A stretch of DNA of 40,388 nt from a virus, in IMG/VR virus record IMGVR_UViG_3300031673_000178, positions 1 through 40,388 of that record; one strand, given 5' to 3'. Both the position numbers and the translations under genes were made by a program. Positions 6,296-32,612 of this stretch are shown here, one piece after another. The stretch's first letter is position 1; each line of letters opens with the position of its first letter. A model generated the notes under the pieces. It was not told where the DNA came from and ran no database searches. It saw only the letters and a list, made by a program, of their open reading frames with translations.

Positions 6296-6330
6296 TATGT
6301 ATATTGCCTCATTTATGTATATTGCCTCAT
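6295..6330 (-). repeat. 18-bp tandem duplication at the tape-measure stop
   Basis: The 18 bases encoding the last five residues and stop of the tape measure (MRQYT-stop, 6313-6330) are repeated exactly and immediately (6295-6312). The second copy is untranslated and places a GAGG about 11 bases before the ATG at 6295. Confidence 0.9.
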
Positions 6331-9066
6331 TACTTCAATAACTGTTTTTTCTATAGATTTTTTAAGCAAATTTTCTATGCCTGCAAATTGTTCTCCAATG
6401 GATATGGGAATATTGATTGTCATGTTGCCACCTTCTTGAACTTCTCTTTTGCTCAAAACACGTTCACCGCGTTGGAGAACAGCAAATTCTTCGTCAGATT
6501 TTAGGCCATTATGTAATCTTGGTATTTCCGCAATATTTGGATATCCTCCAACCATGCCTCCGTGATGCCACCAATTGGGTTTTTTTATGCCAATTTTTGA
6601 AGCTGCATTTGTAATTTCTTTCCCAGCTCCAGTAATTACACTTTCTGTCTCTTTCGCTACTATTGTGGCAGCTTCTCCAACTGAATCAAGGCCATCTTTT
6701 ACTAATCCTTTAATGTCGCCATGATAAATATCAGTAAAAATATCACCAGTATTTTGAGCAATATTAGTATTTACTAAATCTACTATTTTTAATGAGTCGC
6801 CAGTTATTTTATTAAAATCGTTCATCCATCGATTAACTTCCCTCCCCATATCATTGAAACCCCATTTTTCCCATAAATCCATATCATTCATTCCCCATTT
6901 TTCCCATAAATCCATATCTTCAGTATTTATAACAGCTCCGCCAACACTGCCACTTCCAACACTGCCAACAGTACCGCCAACACTTCCACCGCCAACAGCG
7001 TCAGCGCCGCCAACAGTACCGCCAACACTTCCACCGCCAACACCGCCAACGCCGCCAACGCCGCCAACGCCGCCAACGCCGCCAACACCGCCAACACCGC
7101 CAACACCGCCAACAGAACTATATAAATTTTTTCGCATTCTAACACCTAATAAATCATATTGATTGCCAGCATTTTTTACAAATTCTTCAACTTCGCTACT
7201 CATGAAAAATGTATTTTCAGATACAATATTTTTCATATTATTGGATAAATCAATATTTTCTTTAGCCAGGCCGCCTTTTTTTAAACTTTTTCGCGCTAAA
7301 GAGTTGCCACTATTTTGAGAGCTGCCACTATTTTCGCTCAACAAACCAATTGGAACAAGAGATGTGCTTCCAGCGTTGTCTATGCCAAGATTATTTAACA
7401 AAGGCATTATTAATTTTTGTCTTATATAAATTCTTAAAATATCTGCAATAATGGAATCAGCCATTGATTTCCAACTTATTTTAGCTCCCATGGCAAAATC
7501 CACAAAAGCATCTTCCATGCTTTTAGCCGCTTTTATTGTAACATTTTGAATTTGAGAGCTTCTATCTTTAATTGTATCATAATAATCTTCCATGCCTTTT
7601 TTAATATTGCCCCAAATTGTAGCGGGAACTTTTAAGTTTTTTATTTCTTCATTTATAATAGATAATCTTTTTGCAATAGCCGCATATTCCGCGCTATCTG
7701 TTTTGAGTTGCATTCCAATGCTCCATGCATACCCTTGTTCCTCTTCCAACAACTGAACTTTTGTTTTTTGCGCTTGTATTATTTTTTCTAAATATGCTTC
7801 TTGTTTCGCTAATGCTTCTGCGGGAACTTTTAAGTTTTTTATTTCTTCATTTATAATAGATAATCTTTTTGCAATAGCCGCATATTCCGCGCTATCTGTT
7901 TTGAGTTGCATTCCAATGCTCCATGCATACTCTTGTTCCTCTTCCAACAACTGAACTTTTGTTTTTTGCGCTTGTATTATTTTTTTTAAATATGCTTCTT
8001 GTTTCGCTAATGCTTCTGCTGCATCTATCCCGCTGCCAGAATCTCCCCCGATATTTGTTTCTATGTTTAATTCGATTGGTTTATCTAATTTATCTAATAA
8101 TTCGTTTGTATGATTGATGATATTTTGAACAGAAATGGCATATTCTTGTTCAGCATTTTTTGCAAGATTGCCTTTAAAAAAGTCTGTATAATATTGTAAA
8201 CCTTCATTTAGAATTCTAATTGCTCCAGATGCCGCAATATAATTTTTTGTAAGATTTAGCATAACAGCCCCAGCGGTTTTCCCCGCTTGTTCCCATTCGC
8301 TTAAAGCTGTTGTACTGTCTACCATAGCAGTTGTAATAGTCAATAGAGCATCGGACAATCCAGCTAATACTTGCAGTTTGATGGATCCAATTGCCACCCC
8401 CATATCTTTAAAATTCTGATTAACTCTATCCATCTTGCTGAACGTATCATCAGTGATAATTCCGCCCAATCGCTCTAATCTATCTATTACTTTTTTTATG
8501 CCTTCTGATCCATTTTTCATAACCGGAATTAAATCCGATCCTGATCGACCTAACAATTTCACTAAAAGCGCAGCCGCTTTTGACTTGTTACCCATTTTTG
8601 ATATTTTGTCTACAATATCAAAAAATACATCTTCAGTCTTTCTCATTTCTCCAGTAGCTGTTTTGTACGATATCCCCATATCGTCAAACAATCTGGTAGA
8701 TTCTTTTAACCCATAATTTGCGTCAAGTATGTTTGTGTTTAATCGCTTAAGCCCTGTAGCTACGCCACTCATATCAATGCCTGCATATTTTGCGGCTTGT
8801 GACAATCCCTGAAATGTGCGTGTTGATATCGCTGACTTTTGAGCCATATCTTGCAAAGAATCGATAGCTGCGGTTCCATCAATCACAAATCTTTTAAGCG
8901 CTCTAACGCTAAATGCAGCGGCGAGGGACACGCCGATCCCTAGAAGCATTTTTTTAGCATTTTTTGAAAATTTATTAATGTGACCAGATATTTGCTCGAA
9001 GTCTTTTTTAACTTTTGCAACATTTGTTGCAATATCGATTAAGACTCCGCCTACTTTTTGAGCCAT
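6313..9066 (-). CDS. Tail tape measure protein
   Basis: 917 residues, the typical length and position (after the chaperones, before the tail tip) of a siphovirus tape measure, which sets tail length and is ejected with the DNA. The N-terminal ~300 residues are helical with a short hydrophobic stretch (KMLLGIGVSLAAAFSV) and a TMP-like core (MAQKSAISTRTFQGLSQAAK). A 66-residue unit is perfectly tandem duplicated (about residues 350-481). A Gly-Gly-Val repeat, Gly/Ser/Val-rich linkers and a doubled DMDLWEKWG motif follow. The C-terminus (GGMVGG, LQRGERVLSKREV) matches a module common at the ends of phage tape measures. No ribosome site is evident; translation is probably coupled to the upstream chaperone. 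Confidence 0.93.
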   Translation of the reverse strand: MAQKVGGVLIDIATNVAKVKKDFEQISGHINKFSKNAKKMLLGIGVSLAAAFSVRALKRFVIDGTAAIDSLQDMAQKSAISTRTFQGLSQAAKYAGIDMSGVATGLKRLNTNILDANYGLKESTRLFDDMGISYKTATGEMRKTEDVFFDIVDKISKMGNKSKAAALLVKLLGRSGSDLIPVMKNGSEGIKKVIDRLERLGGIITDDTFSKMDRVNQNFKDMGVAIGSIKLQVLAGLSDALLTITTAMVDSTTALSEWEQAGKTAGAVMLNLTKNYIAASGAIRILNEGLQYYTDFFKGNLAKNAEQEYAISVQNIINHTNELLDKLDKPIELNIETNIGGDSGSGIDAAEALAKQEAYLKKIIQAQKTKVQLLEEEQEYAWSIGMQLKTDSAEYAAIAKRLSIINEEIKNLKVPAEALAKQEAYLEKIIQAQKTKVQLLEEEQGYAWSIGMQLKTDSAEYAAIAKRLSIINEEIKNLKVPATIWGNIKKGMEDYYDTIKDRSSQIQNVTIKAAKSMEDAFVDFAMGAKISWKSMADSIIADILRIYIRQKLIMPLLNNLGIDNAGSTSLVPIGLLSENSGSSQNSGNSLARKSLKKGGLAKENIDLSNNMKNIVSENTFFMSSEVEEFVKNAGNQYDLLGVRMRKNLYSSVGGVGGVGGVGGVGGVGGVGGVGGVGGGSVGGTVGGADAVGGGSVGGTVGSVGSGSVGGAVINTEDMDLWEKWGMNDMDLWEKWGFNDMGREVNRWMNDFNKITGDSLKIVDLVNTNIAQNTGDIFTDIYHGDIKGLVKDGLDSVGEAATIVAKETESVITGAGKEITNAASKIGIKKPNWWHHGGMVGGYPNIAEIPRLHNGLKSDEEFAVLQRGERVLSKREVQEGGNMTINIPISIGEQFAGIENLLKKSIEKTVIEVMRQYT
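6945..7116 (-). repeat. Gly-Gly-Val/Gly-Ser-Val codon repeats in the tape measure
   Basis: Nine-base units (GGCGGTGTT-like on the coding strand) are repeated about eight times at 7042-7114, with diverged copies to 6945. They encode a flexible GGV tract and a GGGSVGGTVG pair. Such arrays are slippage-prone. Confidence 0.85.
7622..8017 (-). repeat. 198-bp tandem duplication in the tape measure
   Basis: Copies at 7622-7819 and 7820-8017 are nearly identical at the DNA level. Each encodes 66 residues (ALAKQEAYLKKIIQAQKTKV onward, to LKVPA). The very low divergence implies a recent event; it keeps the frame and adds 66 helical residues. Confidence 0.92.
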
Positions 9067-23629: not shown

Positions 23630-24397
23630 CTAGCTCTGGTAGAGAGAATGCTGTATTATAATTTCTGAAATAGAAAAATCTGTTTCAGTATTTATATCAA
23701 ATCCTTCCAAAAATTGAGTATAAAATGGATATATAACATCTCCTATATATCTATTGTTATGTTTTTTTATTATAGATGTCGGACAAATATCGATGCATCC
23801 GTTTTGGCAGTATAATTTATTGAAATTAAAAGATTGTTGTTCATATGTTGGAACGCCATTTTTTACTCCCGCAGCATAATAAGGCAACAATAATTTCGAT
23901 TTTTCAACTCTCTTAAACCACATCTTTTCTGGTCTCTCTTTAACTTCAGATACAGATTTAAGAGAAATTTTACTTTTAATACAATTGATTTGATATTCTT
24001 TCCAAGCTTTTATAATAATTTTCTCAGATCTAAAAATATTCGTTGGCCTTAAAATAATGTAATGATTATATTTTTCCCAACCAATTGTATTAAATATATT
24101 AGCAATCCATTCGCAATCATTACTATTATTTTGAGATATTTCAACAGGTCTATTATGTATAGTAATTAATTTTTTATCATCTTCTTTTTTAAAATTATCA
24201 ATTATTTTTCGCACAATATTAGGAACATCGGTGCTTACAATAATTTCGGAAAAAATATTACTTTTTATGGCGTTATAAAAAGTATATACAATCAGAGGAA
24301 CACCATTTAATAACTTAAAATTTTTATTTTTTACGCGCACAGATCCCGTTCGAGCAGGAATGAAAGCCACTGGTTTTTCTATATTTTTTTTTACCAT
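23630..24397 (-). CDS. neuA: NeuA-like CMP-nonulosonate cytidylyltransferase
   Basis: 255 residues. The nucleotide-binding P-loop-like motif FIPARTGSVRVKNKN (residues 12-26) replaces the common IPARGGSKRIPRKN. It is followed by LNGVPLIVYT, IIVSTD and a YIILRPTN motif for the product. C-terminal QNGCIDI ... GFDINTETDF is typical (GfDIdtxxDf). The enzyme activates sialic acid, legionaminic acid or a relative with CTP. The start overlaps the SDR stop. The changed P-loop (T for G, V for K) is unusual but in family range. The symbol marks the family, not a known substrate. Confidence 0.8.
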   Translation of the reverse strand: MVKKNIEKPVAFIPARTGSVRVKNKNFKLLNGVPLIVYTFYNAIKSNIFSEIIVSTDVPNIVRKIIDNFKKEDDKKLITIHNRPVEISQNNSNDCEWIANIFNTIGWEKYNHYIILRPTNIFRSEKIIIKAWKEYQINCIKSKISLKSVSEVKERPEKMWFKRVEKSKLLLPYYAAGVKNGVPTYEQQSFNFNKLYCQNGCIDICPTSIIKKHNNRYIGDVIYPFYTQFLEGFDINTETDFSISEIIIQHSLYQS

Positions 24398-25173
24398 GCT
24401 GTATACCCCGAATCAACTAGAATTTGCTGCCCGGTTAACTCTGGACAATCAACGGCAAATTTTAACGCGGCTTCTAAAGAAGCTTTTGATATTAATTTTT
24501 TCAGAGGCAAACAATTTAGAAATTTTGATTTAAAAGGTTCTTTAAATTTTCCAGTTTCAACAGCGCTGAACGCAAGACATACCGATCTGATGCCATATTT
24601 TCCGTACTGCACAGCTAAAGACCTTGTAAATTGTATTAGCCCAGCTTTGGACACATTGTATCCCACTGGTTTTGAGAATCCTGGTTCATAATTTCTTGTA
24701 TCAGCGGCTATGTTGCCTTGTATGCTGCCTATGTTTATTATCAATCCTCTGCCCGCCCTGCACATATCGTCAATGAACATACTAGTTAGGTTAATCGCGC
24801 CGATGAGATTGGTGTCAACTATTTCAAGCGCATTAGAAAAAAAACCTACCTCTGATTTTGGTTTCATTAGATTAGAAATTGTTGGAGGATTGTCGATCGC
24901 CGCATTATTTATGATTATATCCGGCGGACCGAATTCATAGATAAGCGGATCTTGTTTTTTGATCTGTTTATAATATTCATTTTTAAAATCAGCAAGTAGT
25001 TTAAGCGATCTTACATCGACATTATTGATTCCCCAAGGGTGTTCTTTGTTTAGATCAAATCCAAATACTTGAGCTCGGCCATCCTCAAGAATTTTTTGCC
25101 AAATAGGCCCGAGATTCCCTTTGTTTCCAGACAATACAACACGTTTATTTATAAAACTAGTTTCTGGTAACAT
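24391..25173 (-). CDS. SDR-family oxidoreductase of the nonulosonate cluster
   Basis: 260 residues. Rossmann motif GNKGNLG (16-22), NNAA (89-92), catalytic Ser150 in NIGSIQGNIAAD, and YNVSK (Tyr172, Lys176). C-terminal GQQILVDSGYTAW closes the fold. Similar SDR genes sit beside neuB/neuA homologues in legionaminic-type clusters (PtmA in Campylobacter). The reaction is unknown; oxidation or reduction of a nucleotide sugar or nonulosonate precursor is inferred. Confidence 0.82.
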   Translation of the reverse strand: MLPETSFINKRVVLSGNKGNLGPIWQKILEDGRAQVFGFDLNKEHPWGINNVDVRSLKLLADFKNEYYKQIKKQDPLIYEFGPPDIIINNAAIDNPPTISNLMKPKSEVGFFSNALEIVDTNLIGAINLTSMFIDDMCRAGRGLIINIGSIQGNIAADTRNYEPGFSKPVGYNVSKAGLIQFTRSLAVQYGKYGIRSVCLAFSAVETGKFKEPFKSKFLNCLPLKKLISKASLEAALKFAVDCPELTGQQILVDSGYTAW

Positions 25174-25175
25174 TG

Positions 25176-25451
25176 TTATTCTATCTCCTTAGAAAATTTT
25201 CTAAGCATAACATACAAAATGCCAACAATAGCAGGTTTTGAAAAACCTTCGCTTGTCATATTCATTTCAATGCCATTATCTTCAAAATGGATGAATGGAT
25301 TTTTTTTAATTTTTTCTGTTGTATCAATTGCTTCATCAACAAGCTCAAAAGTATTAGACTTGCATTTTTCATCACTGTAAGAATTTATTGCCCCTGGAAT
25401 TTTTTTTAATTTTTTAAATAAATTTTGTTGTATCTCTTGTGGTGTTTCCAT
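25176..25451 (-). CDS. Hypothetical protein within the nonulosonate cluster
   Basis: About 91 residues from the ATG at 25451, which follows GAAGGAG by nine bases. Sequence such as GAINSYSDEKCKSNTFELVD and MNMTSEGFSKPAIVGILYVM suggests a helical, charged protein ending in a hydrophobic helix. Translation is coupled to the NeuB-like gene, whose stop lies just upstream. Not recognised; it may be an unrelated phage gene trapped in the cluster. Confidence 0.6.
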   Translation of the reverse strand: METPQEIQQNLFKKLKKIPGAINSYSDEKCKSNTFELVDEAIDTTEKIKKNPFIHFEDNGIEMNMTSEGFSKPAIVGILYVMLRKFSKEIE

Positions 25452-25452
25452 A

Positions 25453-26520
25453 TCATTCATCTCCTTCAAATATTTTATTTGTTAATAATTCGCCTTTTTG
25501 ACAATTTCTTTTAACTGTTATATTTTCTTTTTCAATTTCGCAAAAATAAGCTATTGAAGTTCCTGACTTATCTTTCGGACTTTGCATACAAATATTTTCA
25601 AAGCTCAAAATAGTATTTTTCTTAACATTATGCTTAAAATACAATGACTTTCCTAACTTTGCTATATTTTCTTTTTGTTGTTCGATTTGAATAAATTTTT
25701 TATAATCATCTCTTCGCATGTAATACAACTCGTCTAGATAATGTCTAAGCTCGCTAAGTCCCGCCGGTTGCAAACTTAACGCGTGATCTGTGCCTTTTGC
25801 TGTATGATCTAAAGTAAAATGCTGCTCTATTACATTTGCTCCACACATATAGGCTCCCACGCTTGCCAAAATGCCATTGTAATGAGAAGAAAAACCTATT
25901 GTCGCGGCGGGAAATTCTTTTTTTAATACTTCAATAATTTTTAAACTCATGTTGTATGCTTTGGTTGGATACATAGCGACACAGTGCATAATAACAAGAG
26001 AATTTTGTCTTTCTATAATAAATTCATAAGCTCGTCGTATATCTTCAAAATATGCGCCGCCAGTGCTTATAATCAAAGGAACGTCTAAATTACAAGCAGC
26101 TTCGATTAATTTTATATTATCAATATCAGCGGATTGAATTTTTATAATTGGAAAATCTAATTTTTTGATGAAATTAACGCTTTCAATATCAAAAGGAGTG
26201 GCAAATAAAGTTATGTGATTTCTATGAGCGCATTCAACAAAATCAACATAATCAGTCTCAGTGAACTCTAAAAATTTTCTATGCTCACCATAAGTTTTTC
26301 CAAAAGAATTTTTGTTCAGATATGGCTGATTATATAATTTATCGGTAAATAATGTTTCATTATTTCTTTTTTGAAATTTGACCGCATTCGCTCCATTTTT
26401 CGCCGCGGCTTCTATCATTTCACAAGCATATAATTTGCTGCCCATATGATTATTACCGATTTCAGCAATTATGTAGGCTTTTTCATTATCGGCAACTAAT
26501 TTTTTATCTAACACAATCAT
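25453..26520 (-). CDS. neuB: NeuB-like nonulosonic acid synthase
   Basis: 355 residues: a (beta/alpha)8 NeuB domain and a C-terminal SAF (antifreeze-like) domain from about residue 285. Motifs AEIGNNHMG (19-27), AVKFQKR, LFATPFDIESV, IKIQSADI, IGFSSHY and EQHFTLDHTAKGTDHALSL contain the metal and phosphoenolpyruvate ligands. The enzyme condenses PEP with an N-acetylhexosamine or its 6-phosphate to make sialic acid, legionaminic acid or a relative. Strong GGGAGGG ribosome site. First gene of the sugar operon; the exact product cannot be told from sequence. Confidence 0.92.
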   Translation of the reverse strand: MIVLDKKLVADNEKAYIIAEIGNNHMGSKLYACEMIEAAAKNGANAVKFQKRNNETLFTDKLYNQPYLNKNSFGKTYGEHRKFLEFTETDYVDFVECAHRNHITLFATPFDIESVNFIKKLDFPIIKIQSADIDNIKLIEAACNLDVPLIISTGGAYFEDIRRAYEFIIERQNSLVIMHCVAMYPTKAYNMSLKIIEVLKKEFPAATIGFSSHYNGILASVGAYMCGANVIEQHFTLDHTAKGTDHALSLQPAGLSELRHYLDELYYMRRDDYKKFIQIEQQKENIAKLGKSLYFKHNVKKNTILSFENICMQSPKDKSGTSIAYFCEIEKENITVKRNCQKGELLTNKIFEGDE

Positions 26521-27377: not shown

Positions 27378-27851
27378 TTATAAATTCTTCTTTAGCCATG
27401 TAGTATGCTTTTCGCCGTAGCTATTGACCCATGTAGCTTCAGTTCCTGAACGAATAACAAAAACTCGTTCAGTAGCGGAAAGTATAGACTGAACCTTATC
27501 TCGAATTTGAATCGCTTTTTCCTCTGTTTTTATCGCCCAACAATATTTGTGAATGGGACAATAACAACCATAGGCCTTAAGAACTTCTATTACCTTGTCT
27601 CGGGAAGTCTCACTATTTGTTTCGAATATCACGATGTAACATGTCATCAATTTTCTACGGCTAACGATTGCATCAGCCGCGCAGCTTTTACGTAACACCA
27701 ATAGTTCATTAAGTGCTTCATATATAATTAAATAATACACAAACGGTATTGGTTTCATTGTTACCAATCCTTTTTGAATTTCATCCCTTGCTTCAATTAT
27801 TTCTGCGTAATCTCGTGGGGTGCCACTTTTGTCTACGAACTCTACTCCCAT
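27378..27851 (-). CDS. SinR/Cas2-like small protein with N-terminal extension
   Basis: 157 residues. The C-terminal ~90, from MTCYIVIFETNSETSRDKVI through KYCWAIKTEEKAIQIRDKVQ, VFVIRSGTEATW and TTWLKKNL, closely follow the pattern of SinR-like proteins, ferredoxin-like folds related to Cas2/VapD-type nucleases. The N-terminal ~67 residues (SGTPRDYAEIIEARDEIQKG onward) are another helical segment not usual in that family. GAAGGGG precedes the ATG. attC site B ends just upstream, so this is a one-gene cassette. An internal start at the MTCY methionine could give a stand-alone SinR-like protein. Confidence 0.68.
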   Translation of the reverse strand: MGVEFVDKSGTPRDYAEIIEARDEIQKGLVTMKPIPFVYYLIIYEALNELLVLRKSCAADAIVSRRKLMTCYIVIFETNSETSRDKVIEVLKAYGCYCPIHKYCWAIKTEEKAIQIRDKVQSILSATERVFVIRSGTEATWVNSYGEKHTTWLKKNL

Positions 27852-27876: not shown

Positions 27877-27943
27877 TTATAACGCACGGCTAACCAGCGC
27901 CGCGGGCTTTATCGCGGCGTCTGTGTTCAGCCGCTTGTTATGT
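27877..27943 (-). other. attC site B (integron cassette recombination site)
   Basis: Minus strand, 67 bases. Left box ACATAAC, spacer AAGC, then GGCT-G-AAC-A-CAG-A-CGCCGCG; the other arm is CGCGGCG-CTG-GTT-AGCC, spacer GTGC, right box GTTATAA. The arms pair perfectly apart from three single extrahelical bases (G, A, A), all on one arm, as in genuine attC hairpins recognised by integron integrases. The L boxes are GGCTGAAC/GTTAGCC. GC content is far above that of the phage. Confidence 0.88.
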
Positions 27944-28153: not shown

Positions 28154-28250
28154 ACATAACCTTAAGCTAATTAGTATGTTCAAATTTGGTCGCCTTATTG
28201 ATGAGGCGACCAAATTTCTGACAGTTCTATTCCCTTTAGCACCATAACGG
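28154..28250 (-). other. attC-like site C with long perfect stem
   Basis: Right box GTTATGT (28160-28154) preceded by AATTAGCTTAAG; inside lies a perfect 14-bp stem, AAATTTGGTCGCCT at 28182-28195 and AGGCGACCAAATTT at 28204-28217, with an 8-base loop. GCTAA/TTAGC could form L boxes. The left side merges with a second half-site whose right box is GTTATGG (28248-28242), preceded by CGGCTTATCAAGC, a class-1-attC-like half. Degenerate, but in line with the other sites. Confidence 0.45.
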
Positions 28251-28296
28251 CTTGATAAGCCGCTGGCAGCTTTATCGCCGGCCCGCTCCACATTAC

Positions 28297-28413
28297 TTAA
28301 TCGCAATGGCCAGAACCACCAGAATCACCAGAATCACCTATTTTTTCCGAACAATGACCACTTGAAACAATTTTTGAAATAGCAACGATCTTTCTTAAAA
28401 TTTTTGTATACAT
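28297..28413 (-). CDS. Candidate RiPP precursor peptide, 38 residues
   Basis: A basic, amphipathic leader (MYTKILRKIVAISKIV, residues 1-16) is followed by a low-complexity core: SGHC (18-21), SEKIGDSGDSGG, SGHC (34-37), final D. The start overlaps the stop of the radical SAM gene (TAATG), so the two are translationally coupled. Small Cys-containing Gly/Ser/Asp cores next to a radical SAM enzyme are typical of peptides whose Cys, Ser or Asp side chains are cross-linked after translation. No known precursor family could be named. There is no independent ribosome site. Confidence 0.6.
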   Translation of the reverse strand: MYTKILRKIVAISKIVSSGHCSEKIGDSGDSGGSGHCD

Positions 28414-29267
28414 TATACCCATCCTTTCGTTAATACACCATTACCATAGACTACACCATATTTATTTTTGTTTGGCTTAAATAATTTTGCAATTACCTTT
28501 ACCCCGTCCCACAAAGAAGCTTTTAGACTATCCTCACAAAGGAAACATGACCTTTTTAATAACATCGGAGTTGAAAACCTAGGCAATATTTTATCCATAT
28601 CAAGATATGTTTGGCATCCATAAGAATAAGCTGGCTTCATCTTAAGTCCAAAAACAGCAGCGAATGAAACATATACATCTTTGCCATGTTGGATTTCAGA
28701 AAGTTTAATAGAACTAAATCCCATAGAATCGTAATGCCACAAACAAGCTGCTATATCTTCCTTGGTGTAGAGAAAAGGCTTTACTATATTGATATTTATT
28801 CTGATTTTCTTTTTCTGCGGGAGATTTGCATAGAATTTCTGACGGTCATATTGTGATTTTGTGCGTCTAATTTTATCGGCTACCTCTTCACGATAGTGCT
28901 GAACAGATAAATTAATGCCGTCTAAGATATCGATTAGTTCATGGAAAATATCAATTTTATCATGACATATTTTCGGGACAGCAGTGGTGACATATAGTTT
29001 TAGCCTTGTTTTTGTTCTTAATTGCTTTACACAACTAAGAAGCTCTTCAAGGTATAGGCAAGGTTCTCCACCGAGGAATAGTACATCATCAATCCCTTCT
29101 TGTTGGCCTATTACCGTTTCGACAATGGCAGAAATATTTGGTTTCTTTATTCCAAGACCATTAAATCTCAAATCTACACAATGAGCACATTTATTGTCAC
29201 AAGCACTCGTAAAGTGTATGTCTAAAGAATTATATAAACCGTCACAGCAATTACATGTCATATTCAT
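28413..29267 (-). CDS. Radical SAM enzyme, candidate RiPP maturase
   Basis: 284 residues. CDNKCAHC (Cys23, Cys27, Cys30) binds the 4Fe-4S cluster; LFLGGEP (64-69) binds SAM. Further Cys clusters at the N-terminus (CNCC, 5-8) and C-terminus (YGCQTYLDMD, SCFLCED) could hold auxiliary iron or zinc, although no full SPASM signature is seen. The length is that of a bare radical SAM core. It overlaps a 40-residue gene upstream and a 38-residue Cys/Gly-rich peptide downstream. The chemistry is unknown; peptide modification is inferred from that peptide, and other roles, such as nucleotide modification, remain possible. Confidence 0.82.
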   Translation of the reverse strand: MNMTCNCCDGLYNSLDIHFTSACDNKCAHCVDLRFNGLGIKKPNISAIVETVIGQQEGIDDVLFLGGEPCLYLEELLSCVKQLRTKTRLKLYVTTAVPKICHDKIDIFHELIDILDGINLSVQHYREEVADKIRRTKSQYDRQKFYANLPQKKKIRININIVKPFLYTKEDIAACLWHYDSMGFSSIKLSEIQHGKDVYVSFAAVFGLKMKPAYSYGCQTYLDMDKILPRFSTPMLLKRSCFLCEDSLKASLWDGVKVIAKLFKPNKNKYGVVYGNGVLTKGWV

Positions 29268-29373
29268 CGTTTATTCCTTTATATTCGACTATTTCAAAAA
29301 ACTCACCGATAAATATTGCTTTTGCATTATTCTCAGCGGTTAATTCTTTTGGCATTAATATTTGATCTTTCAT
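29251..29373 (-). CDS. Small protein, 40 residues, upstream of the radical SAM gene
   Basis: MKDQILMPKELTAENNAKAI then IGEFFEIVEYKGINDEYDM. The PKELTAENgAK...iGEFfE pattern is common at the N-terminus of small phage and bacterial proteins of unknown role; this one is shorter than usual. AAAAGGAGAG precedes the ATG (strong). It overlaps the radical SAM start by 17 bases, so the two are co-translated. It might be an accessory peptide-binding partner, but nothing in the sequence shows that. Confidence 0.65.
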   Translation of the reverse strand: MKDQILMPKELTAENNAKAIFIGEFFEIVEYKGINDEYDM

Positions 29374-29389
29374 TACTCTCCTTTTAGGT

Positions 29390-29450
29390 GGATAACCGCG
29401 CTAATCAGCCGCACGGTCCTTTGTGTCGGCTGAATTAGCCTTCTTATAAG
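29390..29450 (-). other. attC-like site F overlapping a gene end
   Basis: Minus strand: CTTATAAG (a one-base variant of an R box), AAG, GCTAAT-T-CAGCCG-A-CAC, loop AAAGGACC, GTGCGGCTGATTAGC, GCG, GTTATCC. The arms pair perfectly except for two extrahelical bases (T and A) on the same arm. The stop codon of the 91-residue gene lies in the right arm. Confidence 0.72.
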
Positions 29451-29685: not shown

Positions 29686-29733
29686 TTATAACGTTAAGCT
29701 AACCTGCACAAGCTCTGATTAAGTTCTGTCAGC
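29686..29733 (-). other. attC-like half-site E next to terminase
   Basis: Right half GGTTAGC-TTAAC-GTTATAA matches site B (GTTAGCC-GTGC-GTTATAA). The left half is only GCTGAC and has no clear R box; it merges with DNA following the terminase stop. This would fit the outer edge of a cassette insertion. Confidence 0.5.
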
Positions 29734-29750
29734 ATTTTTTTCTTTATTAA

Positions 29751-31800: not shown

Positions 31801-32292
31801 TTATTTTGCTTTTAGTGAAAAAAATTCTTTTAACATTTTTGCAAAAAATCTAACAACGCCACATCCGCCATTGATCGGAACAACAAGAGTAGATATATCC
31901 TTTATTTCTTGCGTTGCGTTAGCAGGACAAAACGACATGCCAACATTTTTCATAACTTCGTAATCATTTAAATCATTTCCGACAAAAATGACATTTTCTA
32001 ATTTTAAATTTTTTGAATAACAATAATCTTTAAGGGTTTGTAATTTATTTTTACAACCAGAAAAACATTTTATTCCCATTTTACAAGCTCGCTCTTCAGC
32101 TATCAATTTTTGTTCCGTTGTAATAATTATTTGTTTTATTCCCATAGTTTTTATTATATTAATTCCAATTCCATCTGATCTATTGCATCTCACAAATTCA
32201 ACTCCTTTTTCATCGACATACACATAATTATTTGTAAAAACACCATCAAAATCATATGCTATTAATTCTAAAGAATTTAAAAAAATTTTCAT
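31801..32292 (-). CDS. KdsC-like HAD phosphatase
   Basis: 163 residues. HAD motif I YDFDGVFTNN (Asp14, Asp16), motif II ITTEQK, a motif III lysine in GCKNKLQTLKDYCY and motif IV FVGNDLNDYEVM; no cap domain. This is the C0 type that includes KDO-8-P and nonulosonate-9-P phosphatases. If the NeuB enzyme uses hexosamine-6-phosphate, this enzyme could remove the phosphate. It lies 5.3 kb from the neuB cluster, next to terminase. The ATG at 32292 overlaps the upstream stop (ATGA) and follows AAGGA by eight bases; 32298 is an alternative. Confidence 0.82.
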   Translation of the reverse strand: MKIFLNSLELIAYDFDGVFTNNYVYVDEKGVEFVRCNRSDGIGINIIKTMGIKQIIITTEQKLIAEERACKMGIKCFSGCKNKLQTLKDYCYSKNLKLENVIFVGNDLNDYEVMKNVGMSFCPANATQEIKDISTLVVPINGGCGVVRFFAKMLKEFFSLKAK

Positions 32293-32612
32293 GGCCATTG
32301 TCCTTCTGTATCTTTTGTATCTTTCGTCAACTCTTCGCTGTCATCTTTGTTGTCATCTTTGTTGTCATCTTCGCTGTTATTTCTAACAAAAGAAGATAAT
32401 TTATTTTTATTCTTTTTTATAACATTTTTTTCTTTTATACTATTAAAAATTTTCTTATATTCTATAAAATATACTTTTTTGTTAAATTGTAGCTCTACAT
32501 CACTTTGATATTCTATCGCTATTTCCATCGCTTCTTTTTGACATTCAAATAGTTCAACTCCAAAAATATTTTTTATTACAATATTAATAATTGTTGTTTT
32601 TTTATTTTTCAT
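32289..32612 (-). CDS. Hypothetical protein with acidic repeat tail
   Basis: 107 residues. Beta-alpha N-terminal region (FGVELFECQKEAMEIAIEYQ), then a Lys-rich stretch and a low-complexity Asp/Lys/Glu tail (EDDNKDDNKDDSEE). The tail comes from a 12-base repeat (GATGACAACAAA-like). GAAGG precedes the ATG. Function unknown; it lies at the end of the replication genes. Confidence 0.6.
   Translation of the reverse strand: MKNKKTTIINIVIKNIFGVELFECQKEAMEIAIEYQSDVELQFNKKVYFIEYKKIFNSIKEKNVIKKNKNKLSSFVRNNSEDDNKDDNKDDSEELTKDTKDTEGQWP

Follow-up and report, generated by a model that had tools for sequence, protein, structure and literature searches.

RiPPs are usually studied as weapons or signals that bacteria secrete. 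Among the known systems nearest to the locus reported here are radical SAM (rSAM) RiPP maturases such as SuiB (streptide), CteB, SkfB and ChlB, with which it shares the rSAM core fold and a short adjoining precursor with a leader and a variable core. Unlike these, our enzyme has only 284 aa with about 15% identity to them and no RRE or SPASM match in Pfam, the twin His-Cys (HC) core of its peptide does not resemble their precursors, no exporter or protease accompanies the pair, and the pair is phage-borne. The RRE plus SPASM arrangement of sactipeptide and ranthipeptide maturases is likewise not recognised by Pfam in the phage enzyme. The nearest named profiles are those of prokaryotic viperins (NF038283, 34.6 bits, cut-off 180; pVip, 38.9 bits), which have a similar N-terminal strand and CX3CX2C region, but the match covers the core only and the phage enzyme has a constant peptide partner. 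Two further groups of rSAM proteins, TIGR04038 (35.9 bits against a cut-off of 129.7) and TIGR04100 (31.1 bits against 262), show weak core similarity far under their cut-offs. The system of Lak megaphages is related over the whole enzyme and has a neighbouring gene product that ends in two Gly-Gly-Cys motifs; it differs in that this substrate-like tail sits on a larger protein and its motif has no His. With regard to genomic context, attC clusters without an integrase, some of them functional with IntI1, have been described in phages (Qi et al., 2023; PMC9892861). The attC-bounded cassettes reported there in phage genomes are akin to those found here, and an rSAM gene with an HC peptide was not among the cargo encountered there.

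The window (i.e., the whole stretch of DNA analysed) is one entire virus record of 40,388 bases with terminase and head genes. It carries an rSAM gene followed by a short gene for a putative precursor peptide (Table 1). As a first-pass annotation of the sequence had pointed out, the stop codon of the enzyme overlaps the ATG of the 38-codon gene, the two sharing one base (TAATG at 28413), and the basic leader and SGHC-flanked core that it described can both be read in the product. The ORF list places the start of the peptide three codons upstream, at 28422; relatives favour the inner ATG. The ribosome site that probably serves the peptide gene falls where the rSAM frame encodes its conserved Lys-Gly-Trp end. 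The same annotation had drawn attention to a 40-residue gene before the enzyme. This ORF exists and has a good ribosome site, but nothing similar is present at the loci of relatives and we rejected it as a component of the system; its likeness to other phage proteins is confined to a short stretch.

Table 1. Coordinates of the gene pair and neighbouring features in the window.
Feature	Position	Strand	Details
Radical SAM enzyme	28413..29267	-	284 aa; CDNKCAHC; CX3CX2C
Putative precursor peptide	28297..28413	-	38 aa, MYTKILRKIVAISKIVSSGHCSEKIGDSGDSGGSGHCD; two SGHC motifs around GDSGDSGG
Leader part of peptide	28360..28413	-	MYTKILRKIVAISKIVSS, 18 residues, net charge +4
First GHC motif of peptide	28351..28359	-	
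Second GHC motif of peptide	28303..28311	-	One residue (Asp) before the C-terminus
AAAGGATGGG, likely ribosome site of peptide gene	28418..28427	-	Putative function, from sequence and relatives
40-aa ORF upstream of enzyme	29251-29373		Good ribosome site
attC-like site upstream of unit	29382..29447	-	z about -3.5 (-3.47, DNA fold); L arms pair, extrahelical base; R'' poor
Degraded attC-like remnant just after peptide	28240..28300	-	z -0.22; R' GTTATGG present, left arm lost
Well-formed attC-like site of next cassette	27877..27943	-	z -4.45; paired R/L boxes, extrahelical base
attC-like site	29688-29745		No structure

Relatives were collected by scanning IMG/VR three times with the enzyme and 84,980 genomes of bacteria and archaea once. 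Enzymes of these relatives are 53-72% identical to that of the window. The pair recurs in more than 20 other genomes, mostly viral, and a frame with two or four HC pairs directly follows the rSAM gene at 22/22 distinct loci with a whole enzyme region (a count that includes one locus, L003, where the enzyme gene is frameshifted). As a control, two HC pairs within 25 residues were found in 8 of 5,857 reading segments of at least 20 residues elsewhere in the same DNA. A blind scan of 2.9 million viral contigs for the peptide pattern, which excluded the window's own peptide because its spacing is longer than allowed, returned 19 contigs: 17 that were already known, the newly found L066, in which a partial rSAM gene directly precedes the peptide, and L075, an out-of-frame chance match. 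In six comparisons of equal-length peptides, pN (0.06-0.30) is well below pS (0.57-1.09; pN/pS about 0.1-0.4), so the peptide frame is translated and under purifying selection. Every synonymous codon of Gly, His and Cys is in use in the peptides. The first-pass annotation had proposed a candidate RiPP system and had named two findings that would speak against it, namely enzyme homologues consistently lacking a nearby Cys/Gly-rich peptide and a short frame that is not conserved; neither was borne out.

Among cellular genomes, the single strict-pattern scan gave four matches, each with the peptide. Within three host groups, relatives were found in 1/397, 1/26 and 1/36 genomes, in each case the starting genome itself, and no relative was found on plasmids. 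The family thus seems rare in sequenced bacteria, as far as strict scan patterns, which would miss distant members, can tell. A Clostridium MAG (L058:3310-5047) contains two related rSAM genes in tandem, 26-28% identical to the query, between gpr-like and holA-like genes.

The peptides share the plan M-[YFW]-T-[KR]-x-L-R…(G/S/A/C)HC…GHC-X, with minor exceptions in the N-terminal part. The leader before the first motif has 16-20 residues (17 in most) and a net charge of +2 to +6; the N-terminus is basic and often amphipathic. Each peptide has two or four HC pairs with a spacing between 5 (L014) and 16 (the window), and all but two peptides end one residue after their last HC. At 47/54 motif positions the residue before His-Cys is Gly, the remaining 7/54 being S, A or C. 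One locus (L002) has two precursors in tandem. The arrangement matches that of an rSAM-modified RiPP system, i.e., an adjacent short precursor with a conserved leader and a variable core, co-conserved with the enzyme. Enzyme and precursor also diverge together: the enzymes that go with four-HC precursors group in a single clade (tree support 100/98). Such a pattern would be expected from co-divergence of enzyme and substrate, although a single inherited origin would also suffice. At one four-HC locus, a second rSAM gene (phrog_9298) lies about 1 kb downstream (L045:6074-7075). When 24 precursors were compared with NCBIfam and Pfam, no meaningful match to any precursor model was obtained, in agreement with the earlier impression by eye that no known precursor family was represented.

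The enzyme belongs to the radical SAM superfamily: it matches PF04055 with 39.7 bits (cut-off 29.5) and the cysteines of its CX3CX2C motif (C23, C27 and C30) are invariant. Four cysteines outside this motif, C8, C101, C218 and C241, are invariant as well, Lak phages included, and are candidate ligands of an auxiliary cluster; the C-terminal C244 is missing from rumen and Lak members. No Pfam match to RRE or SPASM was found in the enzyme, and its rSAM core starts at the very beginning of the protein; a reduced C-terminal domain that escapes recognition may be present. An AlphaFold model (mean pLDDT 88) has its closest folds in a tie between SuiB (Z 17.4), MoaA (17.3), viperin (16.6), pyruvate formate-lyase activase with peptide (16.2) and a thioether-forming sactipeptide-type maturase (CteB-type, 5why, 16.0), with further matches to ChlB (15.2) and SkfB (14.5). 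This structure-library comparison does not tell RiPP maturase, viperin and MoaA apart; in its core the enzyme is similar to all of viperin, MoaA and SuiB, yet it belongs to none of their families. In L014, enzyme and peptide frames are joined through one stop codon; in a joint fold the peptide has a pLDDT below 50 and no docking is predicted.

Among phages of the annotated collection, relatives occur only in 15 Prevotella phage Lak records, whose enzymes are 34-36% identical over the whole length. The product of the next gene terminates in SGGCGNTY…SGGC at eight Lak-type loci where the frame is intact, as well as in Lak-A2, where it is broken. The linker of these tails varies and the twin SGGC is constant, the motif keeping Cys and not His; the protein bearing the tail has roughly 150-170 residues, and the records are without annotation. 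In Lak-A2, the frame of the tail-bearing gene is broken near an A run (L004:3877-4340), either by error or by a real shift, and Lak-A1 and C1 read through. Since both branches have Gly-x-Cys twice near the C-terminus, Cys and Gly, rather than His, would be the chemical centre of the modification.

Within about 4 kb, the enzyme is the only gene family common to the loci, barring near-identical viruses and a few matches between two or three loci. No exporter, protease, immunity gene or second modifying gene is shared within 4 kb among ORFs of at least 45 aa, a size limit that a smaller partner could escape. The neighbours are phage genes, among them an anti-repressor, a scaffold and a PAPS reductase. 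Elsewhere in the window we observed nonulosonate (sialic-acid-like) genes (23630-26520 and 31801-32298 (-)), with a NeuB-like synthase (PF03102, 223 bits), a PseF-like cytidylyltransferase, an SDR enzyme and, beyond the terminase genes, a KDN-9-phosphatase-like HAD protein, all under the NCBIfam equivalog cut-offs. A putative tape measure protein (6313-9066 (-)) has a long stretch of (GGV)n and two almost identical blocks in tandem.

The suggestion that the unit is a mobile cassette between attC-like sites is borne out on the contigs of two relatives and partly in the window. In L033 (IMG/VR 3300031918_000110) and L026 (IMG/VR 3300027740_000026), the pair forms exactly one cassette between same-orientation attC sites with classical R and L boxes. 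Both contigs carry terminase and portal genes, and head genes are also present on cassette contigs. Of the four attC-like sites in the window two are good, including the upstream site, which folds well, but one is structureless and the one by the peptide is degraded. No integrase was noticed in the window. Because the window, L007 and L008 share one branch of the enzyme tree (L026 being too short to place), carriage as a cassette may characterise a single lineage. On the podovirus-like L033 contig, several attC sites stand in a row (L033:3510-5240), and the two that border the rSAM cassette are followed by the same ACACAACCTTCGGTTGGATCGAGGAG stretch. In L026 (3001-3456), inside an intact attC cassette, the rSAM gene lacks everything beyond about residue 119 and is joined in frame to a twin-GHC peptide; such a fusion would need another enzyme or be a dead remnant, and it may stem from a deletion, a natural fusion or an assembly error. 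The neighbouring cassette of the window encodes a 157-aa protein (27378-27851 (-)) whose C-terminal half matches phrog_1090 (unknown function).

We consider it likely that the pair is a two-gene, phage-borne module of RiPP type, in which the enzyme modifies the peptide and the product acts inside the infected cell. Counting against this reading are the short enzyme, its lack of a Pfam match to RRE or SPASM, a core no nearer to RiPP maturases than to viperin and MoaA, the undocked peptide in the joint fold of L014 and the truncated, fused enzyme of L026. An enzyme that modifies nucleotides as viperins do, with the HC peptide not as its substrate but as a partner that binds metal or carries a cluster, would accommodate the nearest named profiles and the PDB sequence matches, which are mostly viperins, and two His and two Cys per peptide make a plausible metal site. 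However, the viperin profile match, besides being far under its cut-off, stops near residue 175, viperin ties in fold with MoaA and SuiB, and the Lak tails retain Cys and drop His from the motif, contrary to a His2Cys2 site; we regard this explanation as unlikely. An unmodified metal-binding or membrane-active small protein beside an rSAM enzyme that acts on something else is a distinctly improbable alternative: the paired HC motifs, the basic and often amphipathic N-terminus and the lack of a leader-cleaving protease agree with it, but the pairing with the rSAM gene is exclusive and one-to-one with co-divergence, many members have no significant hydrophobic moment, and in Lak phages the motif sits on a larger, unrelated protein.

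The chemistry could also be of glycyl-radical type, with H abstracted from the Gly of S/A-G-H-C to leave a stable Gly radical or to cleave the backbone. The match to Fer4_12 (PF13353, 27.5 bits), the fold similarity to pyruvate formate-lyase activating enzyme with peptide and the predominance of Gly before His-Cys point in this direction, but Gly is not strictly needed, given its replacement by S, A or C, and no glycyl radical domain is present, which makes this version highly improbable. That the peptide is a chance frame beside an ordinary phage rSAM gene is scarcely credible: short frames are common in AT-rich DNA, but here the frame is found at every one of the 22 loci, evolves under purifying selection and leads a blind peptide scan to the same loci.

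For the favoured RiPP-type module, we propose that enzyme and peptide would be made from one message by coupled translation and that the enzyme would recognise the conserved basic, helix-like N-terminal leader of about 17 residues. SAM and a 4Fe-4S cluster would then support radical chemistry at the C-terminal Gly-x-Cys motifs (GHC in most phages, GGC in Lak megaphages), the likeliest change being a sulfur-to-carbon (thioether-type) bond or another Gly/Cys-centred one. Because no exporter, leader protease or immunity gene accompanies the pair, the product would most likely stay intracellular and full-length, and it may act as an accessory (moron) gene that helps in taking over the host, in exclusion or in evading defences. 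Given its recurrence across genomes, the pair is very probably a phage-borne system, not described before, whose product is a chemically modified peptide; no description of it was found in the open-access literature. More tentatively, and with somewhat less than even confidence, we suggest a phage-specific RiPP class with a minimal rSAM enzyme, Gly-(His/Gly)-Cys tails, no export or proteolysis, an intracellular product, partial spread as integron-type cassettes and the same chemistry on the Lak tail protein. The pair is small enough for a direct test, and the twin-HC rule predicts the residues that would be modified. If the proposal is true, a conserved, self-contained pair that is nearly restricted to phages of anaerobes would mean that viruses use radical peptide chemistry in infection.
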